Assembly (NCBI GenBank): GCA_003132145.1
Contig: PKWU01000026.1
Location: 1-42,828, forward strand
Origin: Granulicella sp.
Lineage (GTDB): Bacteria > Acidobacteriota > Terriglobia > Terriglobales > Acidobacteriaceae
Reading direction: 5' to 3'
DNA length: 42,828 nucleotides
The translations under genes and the position numbers were made by a program. The stretch's first letter is position 1. Every line of letters begins with the position of its first letter. This document shows, piece by piece, positions 29,997-42,828 of this stretch. Below the pieces are notes generated by a model. The model had not been told where the DNA came from, ran no database searches, and saw nothing but the letters and a program-made list of their open reading frames with translations.

Positions 29997-30211
29997 CGCT
30001 CGTCCCTCCGCCTCGTTTCACGCAGGCTCTATAGCAGTAGATTCCCCATCTTCCCCGCGAGATGTACGAGCGTCACAAATCCCTTCACTCCGTCAAATGA
30101 CAACTTCGTGTAGAAGTGCGTATATTTCTTTAAGTCTGAAAAAACGATCTTCCAACCCGCCCAGCCGATTGAAGCCCCCACGCTTCGCCGGCAGAATGGA
30201 AGCTGAACCCG

Positions 30212-31975
30212 ATGCACGCTGCCCCGATCCCCGCCGTCCTGCTGCTCGCCACCACGCATTTAATCCGCCTCGCGCCGATCGACATCGCCATCCTTCTGTT
30301 CTACTTCGCGATGGTGATCTTCATCGGTTTTTACGTGAAGGGCTCCACCAATACCAGTGAGCAGTTCTTCCTCGCCGGGCGCGAGATGACCGCCTGGGTC
30401 GCCGGACTCAGCTTCGTCTCCGCCAACCTCGGAGCGCTGGAGCTGATGGGCTGGGCCGGCTCGGCCTACCAGTACGGAATCCTCGCCACCCACTGGTACT
30501 GGATCGGCGCCATCCCCGCCATGCTCTTTCTCAGCATCGTGATGATGCCCTTCTACTACATCTCCAAGACCCACTCCGTTCCCGGCTATCTGCAGTTGCG
30601 CTTCGGCGAGCGCGCGCGCGGCCTCTCCGGCGTCTGTTTCGCATTCATGACCCTCCTCATGGCCGGCGTCGACATGTATGCCATGGCCGTCGTCATGCGG
30701 GTCGTCCTCGGCTGGAACATCAACTTCTCCATGTGGGTCAGCGCCATCACCGTCGCCATCTACGTCATGCTGGGCGGCCTGCGCTCGGCCATCATCAACG
30801 AGGTGCTGCAGTTCGTCCTCATCTGGGCGGGCGCCATGCTCATCCCCATCCTCGGACTCATCGAGGCCGGAGGATGGCACAAACTCATGGCCCAGATCTC
30901 CCAGCGCATGGGATCCCAGTACACCCACCTCTGGTCCACCACCGGCAGCTTCGCCGCCAACCCCATGGGAGTCCACTGGACAGGACTCGTCTTCGGCCTC
31001 GGCTTCGTCATCAGCTTCGGCTATTGGACCACCGACTTCCTCGTCGTGCAGCGCGTCCTCTCCGCCAACAGTCTTCGTTCCGCGCGCATGGCGCCCATCA
31101 TCGGCTCGGCCTTCAAGATGTTTGTTCCCTTCTTCGTCATCCTCCCCGGCCTGCTCGCGCTGGTGCTGCTGAAAGACCCCTCCGGCCACCTCATGCATCT
31201 GTATCCCGACGGCAGCCCTGAGGTCCTCCATCAAGGCGCGCACAGCTTTAACGAAGTCCTTCCGCTGATGATGGTGCGTTACCTCGGTCCCGGCCTGCTC
31301 GGACTCGGCATCACCGCCCTGATCGCAGGCTTCATGTCCGGCATGGCGGGCAACGTCAGCGCCTTCTCCACCGTCTGGACCTACGACATCTACCGCGCCT
31401 ACATCAAAAAGAAGGCCGCCGACGCGCACTATGTCCTGATGGGCCGCTGGTCCACCATCATCGGCATGGCGATCGCAATCGGCACCGCGTACCTGGTGAG
31501 GCACTCGGCCAGCATCATGGACTATGTGCAGGAGCTCTTCAGCTTCTTCATCGCCCCGCTCTTCGGCACCGTCATCCTCGGCATGTTGTGGAAGCGCGCC
31601 ACCAAGGCCGGCGGATTCTGGGGCCTGCTCACCGGAACCGTCGCCTCCGTCGCCATGTGGGAGATGGTGCGCCTCAACAAGGCCAACATCCGCTTCATGA
31701 TCCTGCAGCCCCATGCCTCGGCCGACACCATCCTGCGCGTCCAGGCCATGGCCGCCAACCTCTACCGCGCGGCCTGGGCATGGCTCATCTGCGTCGCCGT
31801 CACCGTCGTCGTCAGCTACTGCACCAAGCCCACGCCGGAGGCGCAGCTCAACGGCCTGGTCTACGGATGCACCGTCCTCCCATCCGACGGCGCCACCAAA
31901 CTCTACGAGAAACCCATCTTCTGGGCCATCGTCGTCGTCACCGTCCTCTTCATCCTCAACCTCTGGCTCTGGTAG
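30212..31975 (+). CDS. sodium:solute symporter (SSS family)
   Basis: 587 residues with about 13-14 hydrophobic segments. SSS features include FFLAGREMTAWVAGLSFVSANLG near the start, the substrate/Na+ region HSVPGYLQLRFGERARG, and FGYWTTDFLVVQRVLSA around residue 270. It imports a small solute, often a sugar, with sodium. It precedes a 77-residue membrane protein and a fucose/arabinose-isomerase-like gene, so a sugar or sugar acid is the likely cargo. The upstream 215 bp include an A+T-rich promoter-like stretch (30110-30145) but no operator is recognised. Confidence 0.9.
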   Translation: MHAAPIPAVLLLATTHLIRLAPIDIAILLFYFAMVIFIGFYVKGSTNTSEQFFLAGREMTAWVAGLSFVSANLGALELMGWAGSAYQYGILATHWYWIGAIPAMLFLSIVMMPFYYISKTHSVPGYLQLRFGERARGLSGVCFAFMTLLMAGVDMYAMAVVMRVVLGWNINFSMWVSAITVAIYVMLGGLRSAIINEVLQFVLIWAGAMLIPILGLIEAGGWHKLMAQISQRMGSQYTHLWSTTGSFAANPMGVHWTGLVFGLGFVISFGYWTTDFLVVQRVLSANSLRSARMAPIIGSAFKMFVPFFVILPGLLALVLLKDPSGHLMHLYPDGSPEVLHQGAHSFNEVLPLMMVRYLGPGLLGLGITALIAGFMSGMAGNVSAFSTVWTYDIYRAYIKKKAADAHYVLMGRWSTIIGMAIAIGTAYLVRHSASIMDYVQELFSFFIAPLFGTVILGMLWKRATKAGGFWGLLTGTVASVAMWEMVRLNKANIRFMILQPHASADTILRVQAMAANLYRAAWAWLICVAVTVVVSYCTKPTPEAQLNGLVYGCTVLPSDGATKLYEKPIFWAIVVVTVLFILNLWLW

Positions 31976-32084
31976 CCCGGAACAACGTATCGGAAGGCCA
32001 ACGGCAACAGTCCAGCACAAGAGTCTCGAAGAACCAGGAACAGTAGCTCAACCAGGAAGCGCCAACGGCGCGATCTATAGCAGC

Positions 32085-32152
32085 CTGGGGCGAAGCCCCA
32101 GGTCGATGTCGAACGAAGCGCAAGAGGGCTGAAGGCCCGACCTATAGCTTAG
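32085..32152. repeat. dispersed palindromic intergenic repeat, variant
   Basis: CTATAGCAGCCTGGGGC-GAA-GCCCC... and a second short stem GGGC-TGAA-GGCCC, enclosed by CTATAG and CTATAGC. It resembles copies A and B in having two small G+C stems with TTC/GAA loops. Confidence 0.4.
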
Positions 32153-32175
32153 TCACAGCAATCAAGGAGCACCCC

Positions 32176-32409
32176 ATGACCACCACCCCTCCCGTCGATC
32201 CCAGTACCGAGAAGAAGTTCTCCATCTGGTTTTTTGTTGGCGTCCTCGTGCTCGCCTGTGGCGCCGTCATCCTGGCCCAGGGCATCTACGAGTTCTGGCA
32301 TCCCGGTACCACCGTCCTCGCCAACCTCCACCCCGCCTTCTGGTGGGGCCTCCTCATGACCGCCTTCGGCCTCTTCTACACCATCCACTTCCGCCCCGGC
32401 AAAGGCTAA
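32176..32409 (+). CDS. small two-helix membrane protein
   Basis: 77 residues with membrane segments at about 17-36 (IWFFVGVLVLACGAVILAQG) and 53-70 (FWWGLLMTAFGLFYTIHF). The ATG follows AAGGAG at eight bases. No catalytic feature. It lies between the SSS symporter and the isomerase on the same strand with modest gaps, so it may be an accessory part of that transport and catabolic unit, as small partner subunits are for some carriers. This is inference from position only. Confidence 0.7.
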   Translation: MTTTPPVDPSTEKKFSIWFFVGVLVLACGAVILAQGIYEFWHPGTTVLANLHPAFWWGLLMTAFGLFYTIHFRPGKG

Positions 32410-32466
32410 CGACGTAAAATCATCTTCAGACGCGACCCACAACAACAGATCAAGGAGTATCAAGCA

Positions 32467-33879
32467 ATGTCCAAGCAAATGACCATGGGAGTTCTCGTAG
32501 GCAACCGCGGATTCTTCCCCTCGCACCTCGCCACCACCGGCCGGCTGGAGATCATCGCCGCGCTCGAAGCCGCCGGAATCAAGCCCATCGTTCTCACGCC
32601 CGAAGTCACCGCCCACGGCGCGGTCGAGACGTATGAAGACGCCAAAAAATGCGCCGCCCTCTTCAAGTCCCACGCCGCCGCCATCGACGGCCTCATCATC
32701 ACCCTGCCCAACTTCGGCGAAGAGCGCGGCCTGGCCGACGCCATCCGTCTGGCCGACCTGCGCGTCCCCGTCCTCATCCAGGCCACGCCAGACGCGCCCG
32801 CCAAGATGTCCATCACCCATCGCCGCGACAGCTTCTGCGGCAAGATGTCCATCAGCAACAACCTCAAGCAGTACGGCATCCCCTTCTCGTTGACCACGCT
32901 GCACACCGAGGCCCCCGATTCCGCCGAGTTCAAAGCCGACCTCGCATGGTTCGCCGCCGTCTGCCGCGTCGTTCGCGGCCTGAAGAACCTGCGCATCGGC
33001 GCCATCGGCGCGCGCCCCACGGCATTCAACACCGTGCGCTACTCGGAGAAATTGCTGGAGCGCAGCGGCATCACCGTCGAAACGCTCGACCTCAGCGAAG
33101 TCATCGGTCGCATCGGCCACATGAAGGACAACGACGACGCGGCGCAAGCCAAGCTCGCGGCGATCAAAAAATACATCCCCGTCGGCGACACGCCCGAACT
33201 CGCCCTGCTCAAGATGGCCAAGCTCGGCGCGGTCATCGACGCATGGATGAAGGCCAACGCGCTCGACATCTCCGCCGTCCAGTGTTGGACCAGCATCGAG
33301 GAGTATCTCGGCATCGTCCCCTGCACCGTCATGTCCATGATGAGCGAGAACCTCCTCGCCTCGGCCTGCGAGGTCGATGTCCTGGGCACGCTCTCCATGC
33401 ACGCCCTCGCGCTGGCCAGCGAGACGCCCTCCGCCATCCTCGACTGGAACAACAACTACGGCACGGACCCCGACAAGGCCGTCTGCTTCCACTGCTCCAA
33501 CCTTCCCAAACATTTTTTCAACAAGGGCGTGAAGATGGACTATCAACTCATCATCGCGGGCACGGTCGGCAAGGCGAACACCCACGGCACCCTCGATGGA
33601 AAGGTGAAGGCCGGCCCCATGAGCTTCGCCCGCTTCTCCACCGACGACTTCACCGGCCAGATCAAGGGCTACGTCGGCCAGGGCGCATTCACCGACGATC
33701 CGCTCAACACCTTTGGCGGCGCTGGCGTCGTCCAGATCCCCAACATGCAGGAACTCCTCCGCTACATCTGCGAGAACGGCTTCGAACACCACGTCGCCGC
33801 CAGCTTCTCCACCTCCGCCGCCGCCATCCACGAAGCCGCCACCAAGTACCTCAACTGGGCCACCCACTGGCACAAGTAG
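32467..33879 (+). CDS. L-fucose/L-arabinose isomerase-family protein
   Basis: 470 residues. The N-terminal part has the Rossmann-like start MGVLVGNRGFFPSHL, and the family's substrate region shows QCWTSIEEYLGIVPC, CEVDVLGTLSMHALALAS and DWNNNYGTDPDKAVCFHCSN, with conserved Glu, Asp and His that bind Mn2+. It should isomerise an aldose to a ketose (or a related sugar such as sulfoquinovose); the substrate cannot be read from sequence. GGAG lies upstream of the ATG. Probably co-transcribed with the symporter and small membrane protein. Confidence 0.82.
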   Translation: MSKQMTMGVLVGNRGFFPSHLATTGRLEIIAALEAAGIKPIVLTPEVTAHGAVETYEDAKKCAALFKSHAAAIDGLIITLPNFGEERGLADAIRLADLRVPVLIQATPDAPAKMSITHRRDSFCGKMSISNNLKQYGIPFSLTTLHTEAPDSAEFKADLAWFAAVCRVVRGLKNLRIGAIGARPTAFNTVRYSEKLLERSGITVETLDLSEVIGRIGHMKDNDDAAQAKLAAIKKYIPVGDTPELALLKMAKLGAVIDAWMKANALDISAVQCWTSIEEYLGIVPCTVMSMMSENLLASACEVDVLGTLSMHALALASETPSAILDWNNNYGTDPDKAVCFHCSNLPKHFFNKGVKMDYQLIIAGTVGKANTHGTLDGKVKAGPMSFARFSTDDFTGQIKGYVGQGAFTDDPLNTFGGAGVVQIPNMQELLRYICENGFEHHVAASFSTSAAAIHEAATKYLNWATHWHK

Positions 33880-33967
33880 AAGCAGTCGAGTTGCTGCATC
33901 ACAAGGACGGTCAATCACCGAGTAGACTGGTTGACCGCCGCCTCATCCATCTCTCAAGGGTGAACCC

Positions 33968-34081
33968 ATGAACCTCCGTCCGCGCACGTTGCTCTGCGCA
34001 TCCCTCCTGCTCGCCGCCGCCACGCCCGCCCAGACGCCCTCCTCCGGCGCGCTCCCCTTCGCCCGCGCGCAACAGATGTGA
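33968..34081 (+). pseudogene. signal-peptide stub of a truncated secreted protein
   Basis: ATG 33968 opens a clear signal peptide (MNLRPRTLLCASLLLAAA, then TPAQ) followed by only 16 residues and a TGA at 34079-34081. Secreted acidobacterial proteins typically continue for hundreds of residues, so this looks like the 5' end of a gene cut off by deletion or frameshift. Another frame continues open for about 65 codons, but I could not connect it convincingly. Confidence 0.45.
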
Positions 34082-34389
34082 CGGAGATCACAGAACCGCA
34101 CCCTGCGCGGGACTATCGTTTTCCCTCTTGGAGCCAAGCGGAGCAGCATGTGCCCATCGACATGCCGCCGCCACCACGGGGCGGCATGGTATTGTTCGGG
34201 CATTCGCCGCAGCCAGCCCATCCCGCGTTGCAAAATCCCCCAGACTCCGCCATACTTAGGTGTTGGGTCGTGTGAGCTTGGGTCCCGCCTGCTTCTCAGG
34301 TTGCCCCTGCCTTGAACCGCAGGCCGCTCGATTTCATCTCTTCGCCCAATCAAATCGTTGTTGTTTTTGAGAGGATTCCCCTAGTGTTG
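34082..34389. other. non-coding gap before rpsP with a strong hairpin
   Basis: These 308 bases hold no supported gene. A perfect 9-bp hairpin, CATGCCGCC (34161-34169) with GGCGGCATG (34180-34188), lies in the middle. The last 70 bases before rpsP become A+T-rich (TTGTTGTTTTTGAG) and probably carry its promoter and ribosome site. I saw no SRP RNA or other known RNA in it. Confidence 0.5.
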
Positions 34390-34758
34390 ATGATCCGTCT
34401 GGCGCGTGTTGGCGCCCCCAAGCAGCCCCACTACCGCGTCGTTGTCATCGAGAAGGATCGCGCCCGCAACGGCCGTTCCGTCGAAGTCGTCGGCACCTAC
34501 AACCCGCGCACCACCCCCGCCTCGCTCACCCTCAAGCGCGACCGCATCGACTACTGGGTCGGCAATGGAGCCCTGCTCTCGGACCGCGTCGCAAAGCTGG
34601 TTGCCATGCCCGTCGCTGAAGCGGTTGCAGTTCCCGTTGCAGCAGCGGTCGCCGCACCTGCCGCCGAGCCCGCCGCCGCGACTGCCGCTGAGCCGGTCAC
34701 TGAGCCAATCGCCCCGTCCATCGCGGAGCCGGTGGCTGAACCTGTCCCCGCCGCCTAG
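34390..34758 (+). CDS. rpsP: 30S ribosomal protein S16 with extended tail
   Basis: 122 residues starting MIRLARVGAPKQPHYRVVVI, with KDRARNGRSVEVVGTYNP, the diagnostic S16 core, over the first 80 residues. S16 is normally about 80 residues; here a 43-residue Ala/Pro/Glu/Val tail (repeats of AEPV-type units) is added. GTG 34384 is an alternative start closer to GAGAGG. It leads the block rpsP-khpA-rimM-trmD. In many bacteria ffh precedes it; here that place is taken by the truncated secreted gene. Confidence 0.95.
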   Translation: MIRLARVGAPKQPHYRVVVIEKDRARNGRSVEVVGTYNPRTTPASLTLKRDRIDYWVGNGALLSDRVAKLVAMPVAEAVAVPVAAAVAAPAAEPAAATAAEPVTEPIAPSIAEPVAEPVPAA

Positions 34759-35024
34759 TAACTAATTAGTTATCTAGTAACCAGTTTCCAGTGCCAAAAG
34801 ATGTCGTAATCGACAGTTCTTTCGTTTGTTTTCAGCATTCTTCGCGTAGACTTTTTGCATGGCCGCTTTCAACCATGCGGTCTGCGTGTTTCGCTCTGGC
34901 ATCTCTTCCAGGACGCAACACGGGTCTGTACCGGGAGCAGTGGTTCCTGCTCTGACGACCTCAACCAAGATTGAGGCAGTGAGCAGAATCAAACCGGGCA
35001 GCATACTCCCAAGAGGTGTCTGTG

Positions 35025-35348
35025 ATGAACGAAGTTACTCCCGCAACAAACGACCAATCGACCGACAGGATGCGGCAACTCATTCTGGAGATCGTACAGG
35101 CGTTGGTCGACCAACCCGACGCGGTCTCCGTCGAACTGATCGACGACCGCGATGCCACCATCCTGCAAGTCCGCGTCGCGCCCCAGGACATCGGCAAGGT
35201 GATCGGCAAACAGGGCCGCACCGCGCGCTCCCTGCGCACCATCCTCGGCGCCGCCAGCATGAAGCTGCACCACCGCTTCTCGCTCGACATCATTGAGGTT
35301 GACGACGAGGACGACCTTGAGGATGACCAGCAGCCAGAGTCAAACTAA
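35025..35348 (+). CDS. khpA: KH-domain RNA-binding protein KhpA
   Basis: 107 residues from the ATG at 35025, which has AGAGG eight bases upstream. The type II KH core shows VRVAPQDIGKVIGKQGRTAR, with the invariant GKxIGKxGR loop that contacts RNA. The C-terminus is acidic (DDEDDLEDDQQPE). KhpA pairs with KhpB in many bacteria and affects translation or cell-wall growth through RNA binding; khpB is not in the window. Its position between rpsP and rimM is the usual one. A 266-bp non-coding gap separates it from rpsP, unusually long for this operon. Confidence 0.93.
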   Translation: MNEVTPATNDQSTDRMRQLILEIVQALVDQPDAVSVELIDDRDATILQVRVAPQDIGKVIGKQGRTARSLRTILGAASMKLHHRFSLDIIEVDDEDDLEDDQQPESN

Positions 35349-35405
35349 CCCCGGCCGACTCCGGTTCAGTTCGCCTCCGCCACGAACGGTCCGCCGCAAG
35401 GTAAC

Positions 35406-36047
35406 ATGATCCCCATGGATTCCGCCGCGAAATGGATCGTGCTGGCCCGCATCCTCCGGCCCCAGGGACGCAGCGGAGAGGTGCTTGCCGACCTCTTCAC
35501 CGACTTCCCCGACCGTTTCGACAGCCAACCCCGCGTCCGTCTCGCCCCGCTAGGTTTCTGTGATTCCCCCGCCGCAGCGGCCCTCGAACCAACCCCTCCA
35601 CTCCAGATTGCCGAGGTCGCATCATTCTGGCTTCCCGTCGGCCGCAACGCAGGCCGCATCGTCCTCCGCTTCGCCGGGTTCGACTCTATCGAACAGGCCG
35701 AGCAGCTCGCTGGCTTTGAAGTTCTAGTCCCTCTCGCCGAGCGCACGCCCCTGGCTGACGGCGCAGCCTACATCTCCGACCTCGTCGGCTGCACCGTCTA
35801 CGACCGCGACCGTCCCCTCGGCACCGTCTCCAGCATCGACTTCCCCACCACTCCCGACGGAGCGCGCCGCCTCGACGCAGCCGCCCCACTGCTCGTCCTC
35901 GCCACCCCCACCGGCGACCAGATCCTCATCCCCTTCGCACGAGCCTTCCTCATCGCCCTCGACCCTGCCGCAAAGTCCATCCGCATGGCCCTCCCCGAAG
36001 GCCTCGCCGAACTCAACCTCCAACCCAATCGCGTCCCCGCCAAATGA
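35406..36047 (+). CDS. rimM: 16S rRNA maturation factor RimM
   Basis: 213 residues. The N-terminal beta-barrel starts [24 protein letters not shown], the classical RimM opening (G-x-x-G-E-V), and the C-terminal PRC-barrel contains [20 protein letters not shown] and [14 protein letters not shown]. It aids maturation of the 30S head domain near S19. The ATG 35406 has AAGG upstream. Its stop overlaps the trmD start by four bases (ATGA). Some 15-20 residues of Pro/Ala-rich loop near residue 55 are extra. Confidence 0.94.
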
Positions 36048-36976
36048 CCATGCGCTTCGACATCCTCACCATCTTCCCCAACTTCTTCTCCAGCCCGCTC
36101 GATTACGGAATCCTCAGCCGGGCCATCGCCACCGGCATGGTCCAGGTCGCAACCCACGACCTCCGCGACTTCACCCACGACCGCCATCGCACCGTGGACG
36201 ACCGTCCCTTCGGCGGCGGCGAGGGCATGGTCCTCAAGCCCCAGCCCATCTTCGAGTGCATCGAGTCGCTGGGCGCGGCGTCCAACCCAAGCAATACCAT
36301 TGAATTATGCAATGAGCAACATATAAATCAAATAGATAAAAGTGGAACTGAATGTAATAAATCAATAACTGGAATCGCACCCAAGTTCACCCGCGATCTC
36401 ACCCGCCAGTCCGTAATCCTGCTCTCCGCGCAGGGAAAGCCCTTCACCCAGGCCACGGCGCGCCGCCTCGCCACCCTCGACCGCGTCGTCCTCATCTGCG
36501 GCCGCTACGAGGGCGTGGACGAGCGTGTCTCCGACCTCCTCGCCGACCAGGAGCTCTCCATCGGCGACTACGTCCTCAGCGGCGGAGAGCTGGCCGCCGC
36601 CGTCGTCATCGACGCAGTCGTCCGTCTCCTCCCCGGCGTCCTCGGCCACGAAGACTCCAGCCGCTACGAGAGCTTCGGCATCGCCGACATCCAGCCCGGC
36701 GACCCTGCCGACGGCAAGACCGCAGACGGCGTTCCCCGCTCCACCCACGGGGCTGGTGGAATTTTGGATTACCCCCACTACACCCGCCCCGCCGACTTCC
36801 GAGGCACCTCCATCCCCGAAGTCCTCGCCGCAGGCGACCACGCCTCCATCCGCCGCTGGCGCCGCCAGATGGCCCTCGCCAAGACCCTGCGCAACCGCCC
36901 CGACCTCCTCGCCCACGCCCCCCTCACCCCCGAGGACCGCGAGGTCCTGGCAAGCCTGGGTCACAAGTTCCTTTGA
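36044..36976 (+). CDS. trmD: tRNA (guanine37-N1)-methyltransferase with A+T-rich insertion
   Basis: 310 residues against about 245 usually. SPOUT-fold motifs are intact: [35 protein letters not shown] (the knot), [21 protein letters not shown] and [14 protein letters not shown]. It uses S-adenosylmethionine to make m1G37 in tRNAs with G36G37. Between ECIESLG (about 80) and VILLSAQG lies an extra segment of about 45 residues. Its middle (bases about 36291-36375) is only about a quarter to 30% G+C by my count, in a gene that is otherwise far richer. A second extra loop of about 18 residues ([15 protein letters not shown]) precedes LDYPHYTRP. Function is probably retained. Confidence 0.94.
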
Positions 36977-37014
36977 ACGCCCAGCCCTCGCAAGCGTCAT
37001 AGCTTCGGGCTGAG

Positions 37015-37791
37015 CTACCGACCGGTCTGAGGCAGTTTGAAGTCGACGCCCGCCTCGCGATTCGCCTTCTCCGTGGCCGCAAGATCGAGGTCCGCCACCG
37101 GAATCTCGCGGTGGTGCGCGTCCGTCACATAGACGGCGGTGCGGGTCAGGATGTAGTTGTGAATCTGCTCCGACGGACGCCCGTCCTTGAAGACAAGCGT
37201 CACGGCATCCGAGTCGTACAGCGTCGGCTCCACGGTCGATGGCTGCGCGGGCTCTTCCTGAACTGGCTGGTCCTGCGCCGCTGGCTGATTGTCGTAGCTC
37301 TGGGCATCTGGTCCCGAGACGTTTGCGGAGTTGTCGTTTGCGGAGTCGTCGTAGTAAGCGCCGCCATCGGGATACCACGGGGTTCCGTAGTTCAGCCATC
37401 CGTACTGCAGCGGCCCAGGATAGAGATACGGGATGCCGGCTCGACGCCCCGCGCGTGAGCCGACTCGACCACGGTTGTCGAAGGTCGGATGCCCACTTCT
37501 GACTTCGGAACCGATATAGTTCGCGGCAGCAGCGCCTCTGCCGGGAGCAAGCACCCGCGCCACTGGCCTGTTTCGCTGCACAGCAGAAGCGCCAGCATAG
37601 CGTGAGCGGCCTGCCTGAAAGCTCCCGCCGTGTGCGGCAAAGGTTGCATGGCCTGAAAACCCACCACGGCCCCCCGCAAAACCTCCGCCGCGCCCGCCCG
37701 CAGCGCCTCCGCCGCGACCGCCCCCACGTTGCGCGCAGACAGGAGCGGCAACAGCGATGAGGAACAGCGCAACTGCGAAGAACCGCCTCAT
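37015..37791 (-). CDS. secreted glycine-rich protein
   Basis: 258 residues. Signal peptide MRRFFAVALFLIAVAAPVCA, then a Gly/Arg/Ala-rich segment to about residue 55 (RGGGRGGGAAGGRGGGF), a Tyr/Pro/Gly middle, an Asp/Gln/Pro linker, and a C-terminal globular part containing VTLVFKDGRPSEQIHNYILT and ADLDLAAT. The C-terminal domain with 'FKDGR..Q..NY..T...' is a recurrent acidobacterial motif of unknown role. It is transcribed against trmD and rplS and so interrupts the usual trmD-rplS operon. Confidence 0.78.
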   Translation of the reverse strand: MRRFFAVALFLIAVAAPVCAQRGGGRGGGAAGGRGGGFAGGRGGFSGHATFAAHGGSFQAGRSRYAGASAVQRNRPVARVLAPGRGAAAANYIGSEVRSGHPTFDNRGRVGSRAGRRAGIPYLYPGPLQYGWLNYGTPWYPDGGAYYDDSANDNSANVSGPDAQSYDNQPAAQDQPVQEEPAQPSTVEPTLYDSDAVTLVFKDGRPSEQIHNYILTRTAVYVTDAHHREIPVADLDLAATEKANREAGVDFKLPQTGR

Positions 37792-37859
37792 GGACGTATT
37801 CTACGCCTGTTCTGTTCGCAGAAGCAGTAATCCCCGCCGCGCAGTATCATCTCTGCATC

Positions 37860-38629
37860 ATGTTGAACACTCTGACAATGCTCGCTGTGTTCTTGACCGA
37901 CGCCCAGCAATCCATAATGGTCGACAAGCTGCCCCCTGTGTCGATAACAAGGGATTGTTTTGACCGGATAGCCCTAATTTCAAGTGTCCTGCTTACTATT
38001 GCAGGCTTCATCGGCATCTTCCTTGCATGGAAAACCGTATCAGCGACTAAGAAGGCAGCAGAAGCGCTCTACTCAATGCTCAGGCTGTCATCAATGCCGA
38101 ACGGGCTTGGATTGTCGTAACGGTCGTGCGTGAATTTGATCCAACCCCAGGAGTACATGAAGGTGTTGGGGATCACAATCTCCGCGTGTTGAAGTCTTCT
38201 ATGGCCAATATAGACGGCCAGCCAACCTTCGTTATCTCCTGCGTGAATCAAGGAAGAACCCCAGCTAAGATTGTTGGAGGCCACTTCGCCCATTGCTATA
38301 TCGACCTTCCCGATAATCTGCCTGTTCCAATAAGCTACTCCGGGCCGATTTTTCTCCCCGATCCGACCTTTATTGCGAATGGAGATAGCTTCAGAATCCA
38401 TCCCGGCTTCAAACCGGACTTCATGCTGGAACGGGACAAGAAGCAGGTATCGGTAGGCTTCGTTGCGGAGTTCCTGATTTTTTATGGGCGGATTATCTAC
38501 GAGGACGTTTTTTCCCTGCCCGATGGCAGCAAAAGTACGCACGAGACGCGATGGTGCTTTGCATATCGTTCCGGCGAGGAAAACCCTTTCAGTGCTTGCG
38601 GCCCATCCGGGTACACAGGCCACACATAG
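37860..38629 (+). pseudogene. membrane-protein gene with a frameshift near 38075
   Basis: The first frame (from ATG 37860) encodes a short lead, one membrane helix (IALISSVLLTIAGFIGIFLAW) and KTVSATKKAAEA. It then runs into a stop at 38118. One base over, the continuing frame reads LLNAQAVINAERAWIVVTVV followed by REFDPTPGVHEG and 150 more residues to 38629. The joined product (helix, KxAAEALLNAQAVINAERAWI, then a beta domain with NQGRTPAKI) matches the layout of a common single-helix protein family. A one-base loss around 38065-38080 would explain it. A sequencing error is possible. G+C is lower than in adjacent genes. Confidence 0.72.
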
Positions 38630-38747
38630 CCCCAACGCTAATAACGCCAGAAAGAAAATTCGGACATTACCCGATTGCTCCATTCGTAGTCCATTTGGCC
38701 CGTTTTCGTGTAAACTAAGGATTCGAGTCTCGAACAGGAAAGCATCC

Positions 38748-39104
38748 ATGTCTATCAATCCGATTATGCAGAAGCTGGCCGCCAAACTTGAGCGGACCGA
38801 CCACCCCTCCTTCGGCCCCGGCGACACCGTCCGCGTGCAGGTCAAGATCCGCGAGGGCGAGAAAGAGCGCCTCCAGGCCTTCGAGGGCATGGTGATCGCC
38901 ACCAACAAAGGCCCGCAGGCCACCTTCACCGTGCGCAAGATGAGCTTCGGCCAGGGCGTCGAGCGCATCTTCCCCTACAACTCCAAGGTCGTCGAGCGCA
39001 TCGAGAAGCTGCGCTCCTACGAGGTCCGCCGCTCCAAGCTCTACTACCTCCGCGGTCTGCGCGGCAAGGCTGCCCGTCTGCACGAGGTCGCCCGCGCCTC
39101 CTAA
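38748..39104 (+). CDS. rplS: 50S ribosomal protein L19
   Basis: 118 residues, the usual length. The N-terminal [16 protein letters not shown] is followed by the L19 core: [20 protein letters not shown], then [14 protein letters not shown], and [20 protein letters not shown], then [14 protein letters not shown]19 sits at the 30S-50S interface. The ATG follows AGGAAAG at eight bases. It is normally directly after trmD; here 1.77 kb with two inserted genes intervenes, so it must have its own promoter. The 120-bp upstream gap is A+T-rich and has a small palindrome TTCGAG-T-CTCGAA (about 38722-38734) in the presumed leader. Confidence 0.97.
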
Positions 39105-39127
39105 GCATCAGCGAAACTCAATTCACC

Positions 39128-39157
39128 GGCCACGACGGACCCTCGTCGTGGCCTTTT
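39128..39157 (+). terminator. rplS terminator
   Basis: GGCCACGACG (39128-39137) pairs perfectly with CGTCGTGGCC (39144-39153) around a 6-base loop, followed by TTTT (39154-39157). It is 24 bases after the rplS stop. Confidence 0.85.
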
Positions 39158-39161
39158 CATT

Positions 39162-39300
39162 TAGAGCATTTTCACTATTGCTATAGAGAGACAAGAATTG
39201 CATTCCGCAGTGAGACAAGAATTGTCATTCCGCAGCGCAGCGGAGGAATCTGCTTTTGCACGCACTGCGAGACTCCACACCATTACTGAAAACGCTCTGA
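39162..39300. repeat. MITE-like element with terminal inverted repeats, copy 2
   Basis: Begins TTAGAGCATTTTCACTATTG; its last 20 bases, inverted, match at 16 positions. The interior is homologous to the copy at 22627-22755 (ATTGCTATAGAG near one end and CTCCACACCATT near the other). A short GAGACAAGAATTG/CATTCCGCAG unit is doubled here, making it longer. It lies between the rplS terminator and rnhB. Confidence 0.65.
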
Positions 39301-39357
39301 CAACCGTGGCCTTTATACATACAGCCGTGGTCTCTCTTCCGCTGTAATCTTAACCAG

Positions 39358-40056
39358 ATGCCCCGCTCCCCTCGTCGTCCCGTGCGCAGCGTTTCTTCCT
39401 CCGCCGCCAAACAGCGCCTGTTGAAGTCGCTCGTCTGCTCCGACGCGCCCGAACAGTCCCTGCGCCTGCGCGGCTTCCGCCTCATCGCCGGTATAGACGA
39501 GGTGGGCCGCGGCTGTCTCTTCGGCCCCGTCGTCGCCGCCGCCGTCATCCTGCCCGAGTGCGTAGACGCTCTCGCCCTCGCCGGCCTCAAAGACTCCAAG
39601 CAGCTCACCCACCTCCAGCGCGAATCGCTCGACCGCCTCATTCGCTCCACCGCTCTCGCCATCTCCATCGCCGAGATCGACGCCGCCACCATCGACTGCG
39701 TCAACATCTACCAGGCCACGCGCCTCGCCATGCTCTCCGCCGTCCGCGCGCTCGCCATCGCCCCCGACCACCTCCTCATCGACGCCATGCAGCTCGACCA
39801 TCCCTGCCCGCAGACCAAGCTCATCCACGGCGACGCGCTCTCGCTCTCTATCGCCGCCGCATCCGTCGTCGCCAAGGTCCACCGCGACCGCCTCCTCTCT
39901 GCGCTCGACGCAACGCATCCCGGCTACGGCCTCGCCGCGCACAAGGGATACGCCACCGCGCAGCATCTCCGCGCCCTCACCCTCCTCGGCCCCACCCCCC
40001 TCCACCGCCTCTCCTTCGCCCCCGTCAAAGCCGCCGCCAATCAACTCCACCCATGA
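39358..40056 (+). CDS. rnhB: ribonuclease HII
   Basis: 232 residues. The RNase HII signature GIDEVGRG (46-53; Asp47 and Glu48 catalytic) is followed by GPVVAAAVIL and LKDSKQL. The later acidic residues lie in LLIDAMQL (about 142) and the basic/acidic VAKVHRDRLL (about 175-184), with HPGYGLAAHKGYAT near the C-terminus. It nicks RNA-DNA hybrids and single ribonucleotides in DNA. The first 35 residues are an extra basic lead. It follows rplS, as in many bacteria, although a terminator and a MITE-like element now lie between. Confidence 0.95.
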   Translation: MPRSPRRPVRSVSSSAAKQRLLKSLVCSDAPEQSLRLRGFRLIAGIDEVGRGCLFGPVVAAAVILPECVDALALAGLKDSKQLTHLQRESLDRLIRSTALAISIAEIDAATIDCVNIYQATRLAMLSAVRALAIAPDHLLIDAMQLDHPCPQTKLIHGDALSLSIAAASVVAKVHRDRLLSALDATHPGYGLAAHKGYATAQHLRALTLLGPTPLHRLSFAPVKAAANQLHP

Positions 40057-40110
40057 GCAGCACATTCATGTATGGAATATATTGGAGTCGCAACTTTCCA
40101 AGGGAGATTT

Positions 40111-40614
40111 ATGAATCGAACTCATCTACCGATCTGTCTTGTCGTTTCTGCGTCTTTACTGCTTCTGGCAACTTCCACTTTCGCGCAGGATGTCACACCA
40201 GCCACAACCCAGCAGCAAGCCGTAGCCTACACACATGCAGCCGAAGCGGATCCGCTTGGCCCTCAGGCTGATCAGCAACGCAAGGCGGCAATGGCATACG
40301 ACGAGAACGATCACACAAGTCATGTGCTCCTCTGCGCCTCCGTGTTCAATCAGATGAACTCGGTCAAGAGCAGTCATGCGCGCCAGATCGCGCTTCAGAT
40401 GATCATTTCCGCTGCAGCATTTCTCTACGAACATCCCGAAGCCGCGACCGATTCAGGCAAGCAGAATGTCGCCGGCCTCACCGCAGCCCTGAATGTCTAT
40501 GAGAAGTTTCTCGCAGCGGACCCAAAAACCAAGTCCTCGTTCTACGACAACCTGATCAAAAAGCGAGATGCCGGAAAGCTTGAAAAGGAAGTAGCCAACA
40601 TCTGCCCCAAGTAA
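40111..40614 (+). CDS. secreted hypothetical protein
   Basis: 167 residues beginning MNRTHLPICLVVSASLLLLATST, a signal peptide with cleavage near FAQ. AGGGAG lies six bases before the ATG at 40111. The mature part is helical and tetratricopeptide-like in feel: AVAYTHAAEADPLGPQADQQR, YEHPEAATD, NVYEKFLAADPKTK. Acidobacteria carry many such proteins of about 150-180 residues with no known role. It is followed by repeats rather than by another gene. Confidence 0.72.
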   Translation: MNRTHLPICLVVSASLLLLATSTFAQDVTPATTQQQAVAYTHAAEADPLGPQADQQRKAAMAYDENDHTSHVLLCASVFNQMNSVKSSHARQIALQMIISAAAFLYEHPEAATDSGKQNVAGLTAALNVYEKFLAADPKTKSSFYDNLIKKRDAGKLEKEVANICPK

Positions 40615-40676
40615 GGCCGGGTGCTCCATTCATCGCGGCGGGTGGCCCAGATCTGAACCACCACAAAAGTGGGTGC

Positions 40677-40702
40677 CCCACATCTCGATTCTGAGATGTG
40701 GG
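40677..40702. repeat. 10-bp palindromic intergenic repeat, copy 2
   Basis: CCCACATCTC (40677-40686) and GAGATGTGGG (40693-40702) with a 6-base loop, preceded by GTGC as at 13544-13573. A GGTGCTCCATTCATCGCG element is just upstream (about 40620). The gap 40615-41057 otherwise holds only the promoter-terminator unit below and no gene. Confidence 0.6.
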
Positions 40703-40829
40703 TTGTGTCACCAACCCACCCCACTATTTTCTTTCCCCAAAAACCTCAGCAAAATCGCGTGTCAAGCCCCTGCGCGCCCAAAAAATCCCCTAACCCACAC
40801 CGCACCAACCACTTCCCTCCAAAAAATAG

Positions 40830-40913
40830 TTGGCATAGTAGTTTCCCTCAATCTGGTAAAATAGAAGCAGTAGAGAAGACAAGGAAAGCCCCCGGCAGAA
40901 TGCCGGGGTTTTT
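40830..40913 (+). ncRNA. short promoter-terminator unit, possible small RNA
   Basis: TTGGCA (40830-40835) and TAAAAT (40857-40862) resemble a promoter, although the spacing of 21 is long. Within 50 bases comes an intrinsic terminator: CCCCGGCA (40890-40897), loop GAA, TGCCGGGG (40901-40908), TTTTT (40909-40913). The stretch TTCCCTC-N5-GGTAAAAT matches the promoter region at 5183-5203. A transcript of about 45 nt would result, upstream of the IS1595-type transposase, so it might instead insulate or attenuate that gene. Confidence 0.4.
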
Positions 40914-41057
40914 CATGCCCGAAGCCGAGGCACGGAGGAAACCTTTTATTTTCTTATTGATAGCTATAAGTAGCCTGAAATCTAATCTTTGCAGGCGCAA
41001 AGTCACATCGGTAATAATATAGTTGACTTACCCACGCCAATCTGCTACATTTGAATC

Positions 41058-42053
41058 ATGGAAACGCCAAAGACATTACTCGAAGCGATTCAATACTTTA
41101 GCGATGAGCAGGTTTGCATAGACGCTGTAGCCGCGATGCGCTGGCCTGATGGCAAGCCAAAGTGCCCTGAGTGCTGGTCGAAAGAAGCATACTACCTCAA
41201 GACACAGAAGCGGTGGAAGTGCCGCGAGTGCCGGATTCAATACTCGGTCAAGCGTGGGACGATCTTCGAGGGTTCCCCGATCCCTCTGGCGAAGTGGCTC
41301 CCGGCCATGTGGCTCTTGGTCAACTGCAAAAACGGCATCAGCTCCTATGAACTTGCCAAAGACTTAGGCATCACCCAGAAATCCGCATGGTTCGTGCTTC
41401 ACCGGCTCCGGCTAGTCGTCAAGACCCCAGGCACAGCAATTAAGTTTGGCAGCAATGACGGCGGCGAAGTGGAAGTCGATGAGTCGTTCGTCGGCGGAAA
41501 AATCAAGAACATGCACCGTTCCCGCGCCATGAAGCTAGGCCAAGTCAAACAAGCATCGGGATACGAGACCCGCGTCCATAACGAGAACAAGACGGTCGTA
41601 TTCGGCATATTCGACCGGGAGAGCCGTCAGGTTCGGGCGAAGGTCGTGCCCAACGTCAAGCGCGAAACCCTACAAAATGAGATTTTGAAGAATGTGAAGT
41701 ACGGCTCTGCTATCTATTCCGATCAAGCTGTGGCCTATGACGATCTTCGATGCCGCTACATTCACGACACTGTGAATCACGCTGAAGCCTACGTCAAAGG
41801 CCGCGTTCACACGAACAGTCTTGAGAACTTCTGGAGCCTAATGAAGCGCAATCTGAGCGGCACATACGTTGCCGTCGAACCGTTCCATTTGGATCGTTAC
41901 TTGGATGAGCAGATGTTCCGGTTCAACAATCGAGCCACGAAAGACAATCCCTTAGACGACGCAGACCGCTTCCTCTTGGCTCTATCGCAGGTCGCAAACA
42001 AGCACCTTACCTACGCTGAATTGACCGGGAAGACGGAAAGACCGGAAGCCTAG
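41058..42053 (+). CDS. IS1595-family transposase
   Basis: 331 residues. An N-terminal zinc ribbon (CPEC at 36-39, CREC at 55-58) precedes the ISXO2-like DDE domain, with Asp in GEVEVDESFVGGK (about 140), Asp in IYSDQAVAYDDL (about 222), and Asn/Glu in HTNSLENFWSLMKR (about 252). A helix-turn-helix-like NGISSYELAKDLGITQKSAW lies between. Length is normal and the frame intact, so it may be active. I did not find convincing terminal inverted repeats on either side, and the ribosome site is weak. It overlaps the convergent small gene by four bases. Confidence 0.9.
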   Translation: METPKTLLEAIQYFSDEQVCIDAVAAMRWPDGKPKCPECWSKEAYYLKTQKRWKCRECRIQYSVKRGTIFEGSPIPLAKWLPAMWLLVNCKNGISSYELAKDLGITQKSAWFVLHRLRLVVKTPGTAIKFGSNDGGEVEVDESFVGGKIKNMHRSRAMKLGQVKQASGYETRVHNENKTVVFGIFDRESRQVRAKVVPNVKRETLQNEILKNVKYGSAIYSDQAVAYDDLRCRYIHDTVNHAEAYVKGRVHTNSLENFWSLMKRNLSGTYVAVEPFHLDRYLDEQMFRFNNRATKDNPLDDADRFLLALSQVANKHLTYAELTGKTERPEA

Positions 42054-42241
42054 CCTCTATCGAGGGAAGCGCGGGCCAAAACCGAAGGTCTAGGGCCGCG
42101 CTTCTGCGGGGCAAGAGGTGTGATCTTATCCTGCGCCAGTAGCCGATTCAGCTTCCTCTTGGACACCTTCATTGCCTGACCGAGCGCGGTATGGAAACGA
42201 GTCATTGACTCTTCTGCGGAAAAGTCCGATTTAATGTCCAT
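42050..42241 (-). CDS. small hypothetical protein convergent with the transposase
   Basis: 63 residues from ATG 42241, which has GGGAG nine bases upstream; the frame is open further left in the protein but without a better site. The sequence MDIKSDFSAEESMTRFHTAL is followed by GQAMKVSKRKLNRLLAQDK, suggesting a short helical, basic, possibly nucleic-acid-binding protein, and ends KRGPRPSVLARASLDRG. Its stop overlaps the end of the transposase gene. It may be an accessory or passenger gene of the same mobile unit. Family not recognised. Confidence 0.5.
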   Translation of the reverse strand: MDIKSDFSAEESMTRFHTALGQAMKVSKRKLNRLLAQDKITPLAPQKRGPRPSVLARASLDRG

Positions 42242-42311
42242 TTTCATTAACTCCCTCTTGCGATTTTCTGCTAAAGTGTAGCCATGTGTATCTTCAACAG
42301 AAGACACAGAA

Positions 42312-42345
42312 GCTCTAGCCGTGTTGAGTGAACGACGGCTAGAGC
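42312..42345. repeat. 11-bp perfect inverted repeat
   Basis: GCTCTAGCCGT (42312-42322) and ACGGCTAGAGC (42335-42345) flank a 12-base loop, in the 200 bases between the small minus-strand gene and the tRNA. It could be an IS end, an operator, or a hairpin of a plus-strand transcript. Confidence 0.55.
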
Positions 42346-42364
42346 GTGAGGGTACAGTCAATAA

Positions 42365-42388
42365 GGCAGGTTGCACCCTGCCGGTTTT
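42365..42388 (+). terminator. probable terminator upstream of the tRNA
   Basis: GGCAGG (42365-42370) and CCTGCC (42377-42382) form a stem followed by GGTTTT. A second, stronger hairpin, CCCGGTCAT (42403-42411) with ATGACCGGG (42422-42430), lies between it and the tRNA. Confidence 0.45.
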
Positions 42389-42439
42389 GCTCTTCTCTAC
42401 ACCCCGGTCATGGATTGCTCTATGACCGGGCCTTCAAAT

Positions 42440-42524
42440 GCCGACGTGGTGGAACTGGAATACACAGCAGTCTTTAAAACTGCCGCCTGTCGAGGGATTG
42501 TGGGTTCAAATCCCACCGTCGGCA
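42440..42524 (+). tRNA. class II (leucine-type) tRNA with anticodon UUA
   Basis: The 85 bases form a complete cloverleaf. The acceptor is GCCGACG/CGTCGGC with discriminator A, the D-arm GTG/CAC encloses AACTGG, and the anticodon stem is GCAGT/ACTGC. The loop is CTTTAAA, a 16-base variable arm has a CCT/AGG stem, and the T-arm is GTGGG/CCCAC with TTCAAAT. CCA is not encoded. The body resembles tRNA-Leu, but with U33 fixed in the loop the anticodon is UUA, which pairs with the stop codon UAA (and UAG by wobble). A tRNA-Leu for UUA codons would need UAA. It is therefore a predicted ochre suppressor, unless it is a decayed copy. Confidence 0.8.
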
Positions 42525-42558
42525 AACCCTTTAGAAACTCCACCAGCAAAATTAGTAG

Positions 42559-42588
42559 CAATCTCAATCAATCTCAATCAATCTCAAG
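42559..42588. repeat. 10-bp tandem repeat, three units
   Basis: CAATCTCAAT occurs twice and CAATCTCAAG once, end to end, just downstream of the tRNA in A+T-rich DNA. Confidence 0.75.
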
Positions 42589-42693
42589 ATATACATAGCT
42601 AAGACACCACAATATCATGCTTGCAGAACCATCAACAACTCAAAGCCGCTTTGTAAAACTCAAATCTGCTATATAACCAAGTAGTAAACATTA

Positions 42694-42789
42694 CTAGTCT
42701 CTAGCGATCCAACGGTAAAACCAAACGAGTGCCATCCAAAGAAATAGTATCACGAAAACTGGGTTATGCAACGATATTATTGCCGTCAC
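42694..42789 (-). CDS. 31-residue single-helix membrane protein
   Basis: GTG 42789 opens a 31-residue frame, MTAIISLHNPVFVILFLWM followed by ALVWFYRWIARD, ending at TAG 42694-42696. It is one membrane helix with a basic C-terminal end (RWIARD), the positive-inside pattern of many small membrane proteins and type I-like toxins. The GTG overlaps the TGA of the upstream frame (GTGA), so translation is coupled. The DNA is A+T-rich and accessory. No antisense RNA could be shown. Small size lowers confidence. Confidence 0.45.
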   Translation of the reverse strand: MTAIISLHNPVFVILFLWMALVWFYRWIARD

Positions 42790-42828
42790 ATCTCTTTTAT
42801 TCCAGAGACTTTACGAAGCACGGAAAAT
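42786..42828 (-). CDS. C-terminal end of an unidentified protein, cut by window edge
   Basis: Thirteen codons (FSVLRKVSGIKEM) run from the right edge to the TGA at 42786-42788 and overlap the start of the 31-residue membrane protein. Nothing about function can be said. The overlap is the main reason to think it is a real frame. Confidence 0.3.
   Translation of the reverse strand, partial: FSVLRKVSGIKEM

Follow-up and report, generated by a model that had tools for sequence, protein, structure and literature searches.

A leucine-type tRNA gene with the anticodon UUA in an IS1595-type transposon of Granulicella sp., a predicted mobile ochre suppressor

Introduction

Why does a bacterium that uses the standard genetic code carry a tRNA gene whose anticodon is complementary to the stop codon UAA, and how did this gene reach its position? 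The question is raised by contig PKWU01000026.1 of Granulicella sp. (assembly GCA_003132145.1), of which the whole stretch of 42,828 nucleotides was analysed and is called the window here. A preliminary description had placed a leucine-type tRNA gene with the anticodon UUA near its right end, downstream of a transposase, and had proposed that this tRNA reads UAA for an element beyond the right edge. Recoded phages carry suppressor tRNAs with stop-codon anticodons. For standard-code bacteria, the available text of PMC13092985 reports natural nonsense-suppressor tRNAs in 0.3% of the genomes analysed and explains them as decoding nonsense mutations; in its main text the strings "transpos" and "UUA" occur 0 times. 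By our own reading of the accessible part of that paper, natural suppressor tRNAs in such bacteria are mostly regarded as single, unconnected cases.

Results

The tRNA gene in the window

The gene and its anticodon are located as follows.

42440–42524, plus strand: UUA tRNA gene, class II, Leu-type, predicted ochre suppressor, with A73 and without an encoded CCA
42474–42476, plus strand: anticodon TTA (UUA), within the loop CTTTAAA at 42472–42478, from the ARAGORN structure and the sequence

ARAGORN called 42439–42525 as tRNA-Stop(tta), and Infernal matched 42440–42524 to Rfam RF00005 with 57.5 bits (gathering score 29). Both programs call a complete tRNA, in agreement with the preliminary description. 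The cloverleaf of the 85-base stretch is canonical, with 7 acceptor, 3 D-stem, 5 anticodon-stem, 3 variable-arm and 5 T-stem pairs; in a longer stretch, ARAGORN adds an eighth acceptor pair, U-1:A73. UUA occupies positions 34–36 of an intact loop and is complementary to UAA. The Leu-type body that had been described is borne out by the class II variable arm, A73 and the conserved D- and T-loop residues, with a variable-arm stem that is short (3 pairs). Positions 27 and 43 are paired and give a normal 5-bp anticodon stem. A73 is followed by AAC and not by CCA, whereas CCA is encoded in all four Leu tRNAs seen in the genome of the window.

Among 99 other genomes of a search of relatives, the same 85 bases were found in one, G056 (Granulicella sp. 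bog_405, same genus), and 3 more gave weaker matches, to ordinary tRNA-Leu. A one-off base error in the loop that hides a UAA anticodon is unlikely because the bog_405 copy (L046/L137) is identical, although it is not fully independent, since it comes from the corresponding locus, inside 2.87 kb of identical sequence.

The transposon around the tRNA

The tRNA gene is surrounded by the following features, where TIR is a terminal inverted repeat and TSD a target-site duplication.

41002–41009, no strand: TSD, left copy, 8 bp, GTCACATC, identical to 42785–42792
41010–42784, plus strand: IS1595-type passenger-carrying transposon, 1775 bp, with transposase, convergent small ORF and UUA tRNA; TIR 20/25, TSD 8/8, five empty sites
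41010–41034, plus strand: TIR, left, GGTAATAATATAGTTGACTTACCCA; a similar motif ends other IS1595 elements with and without tRNA
41058–42053, plus strand: IS1595-family transposase, 331 aa, stop TAG; PF12762 DDE_Tnp_IS1595 1.4e-40, PF12760 zinc ribbon 2.9e-11
42050–42247, minus strand: small ORF convergent with the transposase gene, whose stop it overlaps; 65 aa counted from an internal ATG, inside a 108-aa ORF
42311–42435, plus strand: structured leader, limits approximate, with a terminator-like hairpin at 42365–42382 and a 12-pair hairpin just 5' of the tRNA
42760–42784, minus strand: TIR, right (reverse complement GGCAATAATATCGTTGCATAACCCA), pairing 20/25 with the left repeat
42785–42792, no strand: TSD, right copy, GTCACATC; a single copy in each of the five empty sites, two of the copies being exact and three slightly varied

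Both Pfam matches of the transposase are above the curated cut-offs, which confirms the IS1595-type transposase noted earlier upstream of the tRNA. The element starts 48 bp 5' of this gene. Target duplications of the IS1595 family are 8 bp long, as is that of the window element. The GTCACATC pair at its ends has inner flanks that match inversely at 19 of 24 positions. As a chance control, 1852 identical 8-mer pairs lying 0.8–5 kb apart in 30001–42828 were examined, and only one, the GTCACATC pair, reached inverse inner flanks of ≥15/24. Ends like these were also found in the tRNA-free elements L057, L061, L068 and L073. The tRNA gene at 42440–42524 sits between the inverted repeats, as a passenger does in a passenger-carrying IS (tIS). 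A second tRNA within the element was ruled out, as Infernal finds one tRNA only and the low-threshold ARAGORN call upstream is weak.

The small convergent ORF gave no Pfam match and is a possible partner gene of the element; by eye, comparable short ORFs adjoin the transposase at a similar place in the tRNA-free loci L054, L061 and L068. The leader RNA (42300–42439) folds at -67.5 kcal/mol (z = -6.7) and could be regulatory or a terminator. Three terminator-like sites were found against 1.9 expected, one of them 5' of the tRNA, and the promoter-like sites in the element did not exceed the chance level (2 against 1.7 expected).

Of 30 related IS1595 loci, the 29 others showed no tRNA by ARAGORN within flanks of up to 1.5 kb. 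This result rules out the tRNA as a general cargo of related IS1595 elements and indicates that it is optional for transposition. The tRNA-free elements L054, L057, L060, L061, L068, L071 and L073 have clear ends, 8-bp duplications and diverse passenger ORFs of unassigned role. Among plasmid records, the whole element had no match, and the tRNA alone had one (Collinsella, 76%). An accessory gene adjoins the tRNA in many relatives but not in the window element; the tRNA can thus be the only cargo.

Insertion site and sister genome

The target of the element is an intergenic, dispersed repeat about 215 bp long (40831–41009 plus 42793–42828 of the window). Several copies of this repeat, which contains a GC-rich hairpin followed by T, occur in the window genome and in the sister genome. 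Five empty copies, one in the window genome (L249) and four in the sister genome, aligned at 83–88% across the joined flanks without the element. Each contains the target octamer once, exactly in L246 and L248 and with 1–2 changes in L247, L249 and L250. The inverted repeats, the duplication and the empty sites together indicate that the element comprises 41010–42784 (1775 bp) and that the tRNA gene is its cargo. At 40637–40879 lies a further repeat, to which many sequences across the genus match in part.

These boundaries bear on the proposal that the tRNA serves an element to the right. The tRNA is of leucine type, is predicted to read UAA and does belong to a mobile element, but that element lies wholly inside the window. 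The right-hand location is rejected because the right end of the element is at 42784 and because the empty sites show its two flanks joined. The right edge of the window is an assembly gap (two N at 42829–42830), and the DNA past it resembles, by eye, ordinary high-GC chromosomal genes.

The stretch 39961–42828 is 100% identical over 2.87 kb to L050 (G056:C3, Granulicella sp. bog_405). The identical block takes in flanking host DNA and the end of an RNase HII gene, and it reflects either recent recombination or an assembly or binning artefact. A chimeric assembly, in which the tRNA does not belong to the window genome as assembled, would fit the identity of the block between two species that differ by about 5–16% in longer pieces around it, the break of both assemblies at about 42828, and the nature of the assemblies (G056 is a MAG and G000 probably one). 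We nevertheless regard such an artefact as highly improbable: the element and its TSD sit in a dispersed repeat that is native to both genomes, and the same anatomy occurs in named isolates, e.g. Rhizobacter sp. Root404 (L134) and Arenimonas composti (L140).

Other tRNAs with the anticodon UUA

Other UUA tRNAs were surveyed with a pattern consisting of a Leu-type D-arm followed at a fixed distance by YTTTAAR, scanned against viral contigs and a genome collection (described as one genome per species, 84,980 species). The pattern matched 55 genome and 16 viral stretches, and ARAGORN called a UUA tRNA in 28 and 10 of these, respectively; the 28 genome loci include the sister copy, and the same tRNA sequence recurs in four viral contigs. 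Because the pattern is strict, these counts are lower bounds. From 40 ARAGORN UUA genes we left out L137 (the locus of the window), L156, L159 and L160 (which have the tRNA sequence of L155) and the second genes of L092 and L138, and we added the window and L176, which gave 36 loci. Judged by their names, the hosts presumably include Acidobacteria, alpha-, beta- and gammaproteobacteria, Nitrospinaceae, Myxococcales and Phycisphaera. Acidicapsa dinghuensis is among the cultured carriers, together with Rhizobacter sp. Root404 and Arenimonas composti.

The remaining matches (27 of the 55 genome and 6 of the 16 viral stretches) were not UUA tRNAs by ARAGORN, and many of them, by their look, are intron-bearing tRNA-Leu(UAA) or chance. 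A tRNA-Leu(UAA) interrupted by a group I intron is a known kind of gene. L095, L096, L097, L103, L109, L113, L118, L120, L124, L127 and others run from the 5' half of tRNA-Leu(UAA) into group-I-intron-like sequence, some of them on plasmids.

Within the phylum of the window, a pattern allowing TTA, CTA, TCA and CCA matched with TTA only, in 2 of 396 genomes (the window genome and G203); the G203 tRNA has an IS1-like transposase nearby. Amber and opal versions in this phylum were thus discarded, as CTA, TCA and CCA matched none of the 396 genomes. In the viral contigs, the pattern scan gave 5 matches for TCA/CCA and 8 for CTA. Phage records similar to the tRNA numbered 243, and the 12 listed were all tRNA-Leu, by annotation only.

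Several UUA tRNAs have tRNA-like neighbours. In L092 (5640–5732, minus strand) and L138 (6400–6492, plus strand), which belong to the same genome, a second, different class II tRNA with UUA and G73 adjoins the Leu-type UUA tRNA; its acceptor branch, read from the letters, also fits 8/4, and it is possibly an allo-tRNA. In L090 (4632–4704, minus strand) and L093 (5777–5850, plus strand), from different hosts, a class I tRNA-like gene with the anticodon called as TGC lies directly upstream of the UUA tRNA. Weaker tRNA-like stretches occur near the UUA tRNA in L100, L140, L151 and L122.

Common origin and structural conservation

In a tree calculated with the anticodon masked and the variable-arm columns padded rather than aligned, 33 of the 36 suppressors fell into one clade (support 0.948), and none of the 27 host Leu tRNAs fell inside it. 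The host set comprised UAA and CAA types only, from 30 loci; 23 of 26 genomes were matched, and it held none from the hosts of L091, L105 and L115. L131, L142 and L153 lay outside the clade and look like separate cases. In L131 (3299–3385, a Thiomargarita bin), the UUA tRNA lies directly behind tRNA-Gly and tRNA-Cys and near a host Leu(UAA) in the tree, and it represents a separate origin or a base error.

Structure was counted in 31 members (L130, L131, L142, L150 and L153 left out). Of the stem cells, 97.1% were paired, and 14 of 20 stem pairs showed changes on both sides. None of 500 shuffles reached four of the five structure measures, and one shuffle reached the fifth. All 31 aligned members have A73. 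U31-A39 was found in 28 of 35 suppressors, whereas all 27 host Leu tRNAs have A31-U39. Positions 27 and 43 were unpaired in 18 of 35 suppressors (L176, which is paired there, left out; 16 of the 31 in the structure set) versus 1 of the 27 UAA- and CAA-type host Leu tRNAs. These results show that the family of UUA Leu-type tRNAs has a common origin and is structurally conserved. According to the accessible text of PMC13092985, a 4-bp anticodon stem was linked to UAA readthrough in an early E. coli suppressor screen; the window tRNA lacks this feature because its 27–43 pair is intact.

These data also bear on whether the tRNA is a decaying passenger, acquired once and carried without function in the window element. 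Such decay could account for the missing CCA in a genome where four Leu tRNAs encode it, for the lack of a clear promoter, and for the lack of an adjacent accessory gene of the kind found in many relatives. However, the tRNA scores well with all stems intact, and drift would destroy the pairing and the many compensatory changes seen across the 31 members. CCA is also absent in 19 of 35 family members, so its loss is by itself no sign of decay. We consider this alternative unlikely.

Link to transposons across the family

Of the 36 UUA loci, 21 have an IS1595- or IS1-type transposase at most 2.5 kb from the tRNA, versus none of 66 controls (Fisher p = 2e-12). The controls were 33 pattern matches without a UUA tRNA, 30 tRNA loci of the window genome and 3 Leu tRNA loci of relatives; they are shorter on average (3515 versus 4404 bases), and several overlap one another. 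Two of the 21 transposase matches (L130 and L151) are partial, and the loci are not all independent, since L092 and L138 come from one genome and L110 and L150 share the tRNA and its neighbours. No transposase was found near the tRNA in the other 15 loci.

Element ends were tested in 21 loci, namely the transposase-linked ones minus L151 plus L098. In 9 of the 21, a TIR of ≥20/25 and a TSD of 8/8 surround tRNA and transposase. L115 is a tenth bounded element (TIR 20/25, TSD AAGGGTTA), which this test missed because the longest ORF of its transposase extends 2 bases past the end of the element. Ten loci, including that of the window, therefore have inverted repeats and an 8-bp duplication enclosing tRNA and transposase. 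The IS1-like L101 has a TIR of 25/25 and a TSD of 7/8, and L106 and L155 showed repeats in one search and nothing in the 21-locus test. In the end search, no two-ended element was accepted for L092, L098, L100, L108, L114, L130, L138 and L176; the end matches of L098, L130 and L176 resemble chance matches.

In the tree, the window tRNA and the three other acidobacterial tRNAs (L101, L106 and L176) are neighbours; the window tRNA lies on an IS1595 element and the other three lie with IS1-like transposases. This arrangement suggests that the tRNA has moved between transposon types.

In many relatives, a small accessory gene lies directly beside the tRNA and gives at best weak winged-helix-like matches, under the Pfam cut-offs. 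These genes would fit a role of the suppressor in conflict among mobile elements, as a weapon or as a shield, e.g. by spoiling termination in incoming phages, as other passengers may do, and the same slot does hold other passenger ORFs in tRNA-free relatives. We think this role quite unlikely: no defence gene was identified in a search made without the PADLOC library, and the window element itself lacks such an accessory gene.

Possible UAA targets and cost to the host

The preliminary description names rplS and a DUF885 gene among those that end in TAA. In a rough count over 29 window ORFs, TAA is the stop in 4, TAG in 10 and TGA in 15. Because UAA is the rarest stop in this set, weak suppression may be cheap, and the cost of the tRNA to the host may be small.

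The tRNA might serve the element's own genes by reading an in-frame UAA in them; the transposase or an accessory protein would then be complete only with the tRNA. TAA is the transposase stop in 7 of 14 tRNA-bearing IS1595 loci, several with an open frame beyond it, versus 23 of 35 tRNA-free transposases (p = 0.35; the 35 are 39 minus L085–L088, which repeat L052–L055); TAA is thus not significantly rarer where the tRNA is present. The alignments of the L122 and L098 transposases with that of L140 continue beyond the TAA stop. However, these extensions are weak and gapped, and the stops past TAA do not coincide between L122 and L140. The other cross-element matches spanning TAA are, in our judgement, mostly in antisense or overlapping frames, and both genes of the window element end in TAG. 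In-frame TAA codons in the element genes were thus not convincing, and no convincingly conserved TAA-interrupted frame was found in the window element or its relatives. Dependence of the element's own genes on the tRNA is therefore very unlikely.

Discussion

Taken together, we consider it probable, on the strength of sequence comparison, that the window tRNA belongs to a family of Leu-type UUA tRNAs, predicted to act as leucine-charged ochre suppressors, that has spread between distant bacteria as cargo of IS1595 and IS1-like elements. The window copy is the cargo of the IS1595-family transposon at 41010–42784, and a single Leu-type UUA family would ride small DDE transposons of both kinds from host to host. 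E. coli LeuRS is not known to need the anticodon. The RNA would be transcribed, CCA would be added by the host enzyme, and host LeuRS would charge the tRNA with leucine; the charged tRNA would compete with release factors and insert leucine at some UAA codons. The host would pay a limited cost because UAA is a rare stop in a high-GC host and expression of the tRNA is probably weak. Most likely, the element keeps the tRNA for a benefit of partial UAA readthrough in the host or in cohabiting mobile DNA; no UAA codon dedicated to the tRNA was found within the element, which makes that alternative less likely. We lean only slightly towards the wider proposal that one mobile family of leucine-inserting, UAA-reading tRNAs, tuned in half of its members by an unpinned anticodon stem, crosses phyla on at least two kinds of small transposon.

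Passenger-carrying members of the IS1595 family, the transporter IS or tIS, were reportedly described by Siguier et al. in 2009. The window element resembles them in its transposase domains, inverted repeats, 8-bp target duplication and passenger slot beside the transposase. It shares a stop-codon anticodon on mobile DNA with the recoded phages but has no recoded gene set, consisting of a transposase and a small ORF besides the tRNA. Schultz and Yarus (1994) are said to have linked tRNAs with 4-bp anticodon stems to stop readthrough. The 18 of 35 family members unpaired at 27–43 are like such tRNAs, as far as the available text of PMC13092985 describes them, and the window copy, with its normal 5-bp stem, is unlike them.

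Passenger genes of IS are mentioned only in general in the accessible parts of PMC3129680 and PMC7986276, and compared with the tIS described in the sources at hand, the window element differs in carrying, as its passenger, a tRNA gene whose anticodon is complementary to a stop codon. With the natural nonsense suppressors in the available text of PMC13092985, the window tRNA shares a stop-complementary anticodon and a standard-code host; unlike those cases, the UUA tRNAs found here belong mostly to one mobile family and often lie on transposons. Allo-tRNAs (Mukai et al. 2017), in the sections of PMC7609411 at hand, are unusual tRNAs of Clostridia, Proteobacteria and Acidobacteria with 8/4 or 9/3 acceptor branches that were first taken for serine isoacceptors. 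The window tRNA differs from that account of them in its 7/5 (85-base stretch) or 8/5 (longer stretch) acceptor branch and its leucine features, and the second tRNA of L092 and L138, which fits 8/4 and has G73, is nearer to it. A literature search covering few subscription papers found no paper on a transposon that carries a suppressor tRNA. Both IS1595 elements with passengers and natural suppressor tRNAs are known, and the window element combines the two, as a passenger IS whose cargo is a predicted mobile ochre suppressor.

Of the 36 Leu-type UUA tRNAs examined, 33 form one lineage, apparently spread horizontally, and at least 10 lie inside transposons with defined ends. The presence of this lineage on defined transposons makes the long-standing problem of the origin and use of stop-codon readthrough directly testable. 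It also offers natural suppressor tRNAs already tried in many hosts as a resource for genetic-code work. If the wider proposal is true, a class of transposons would partly alter the meaning of a stop codon in every host that it enters.
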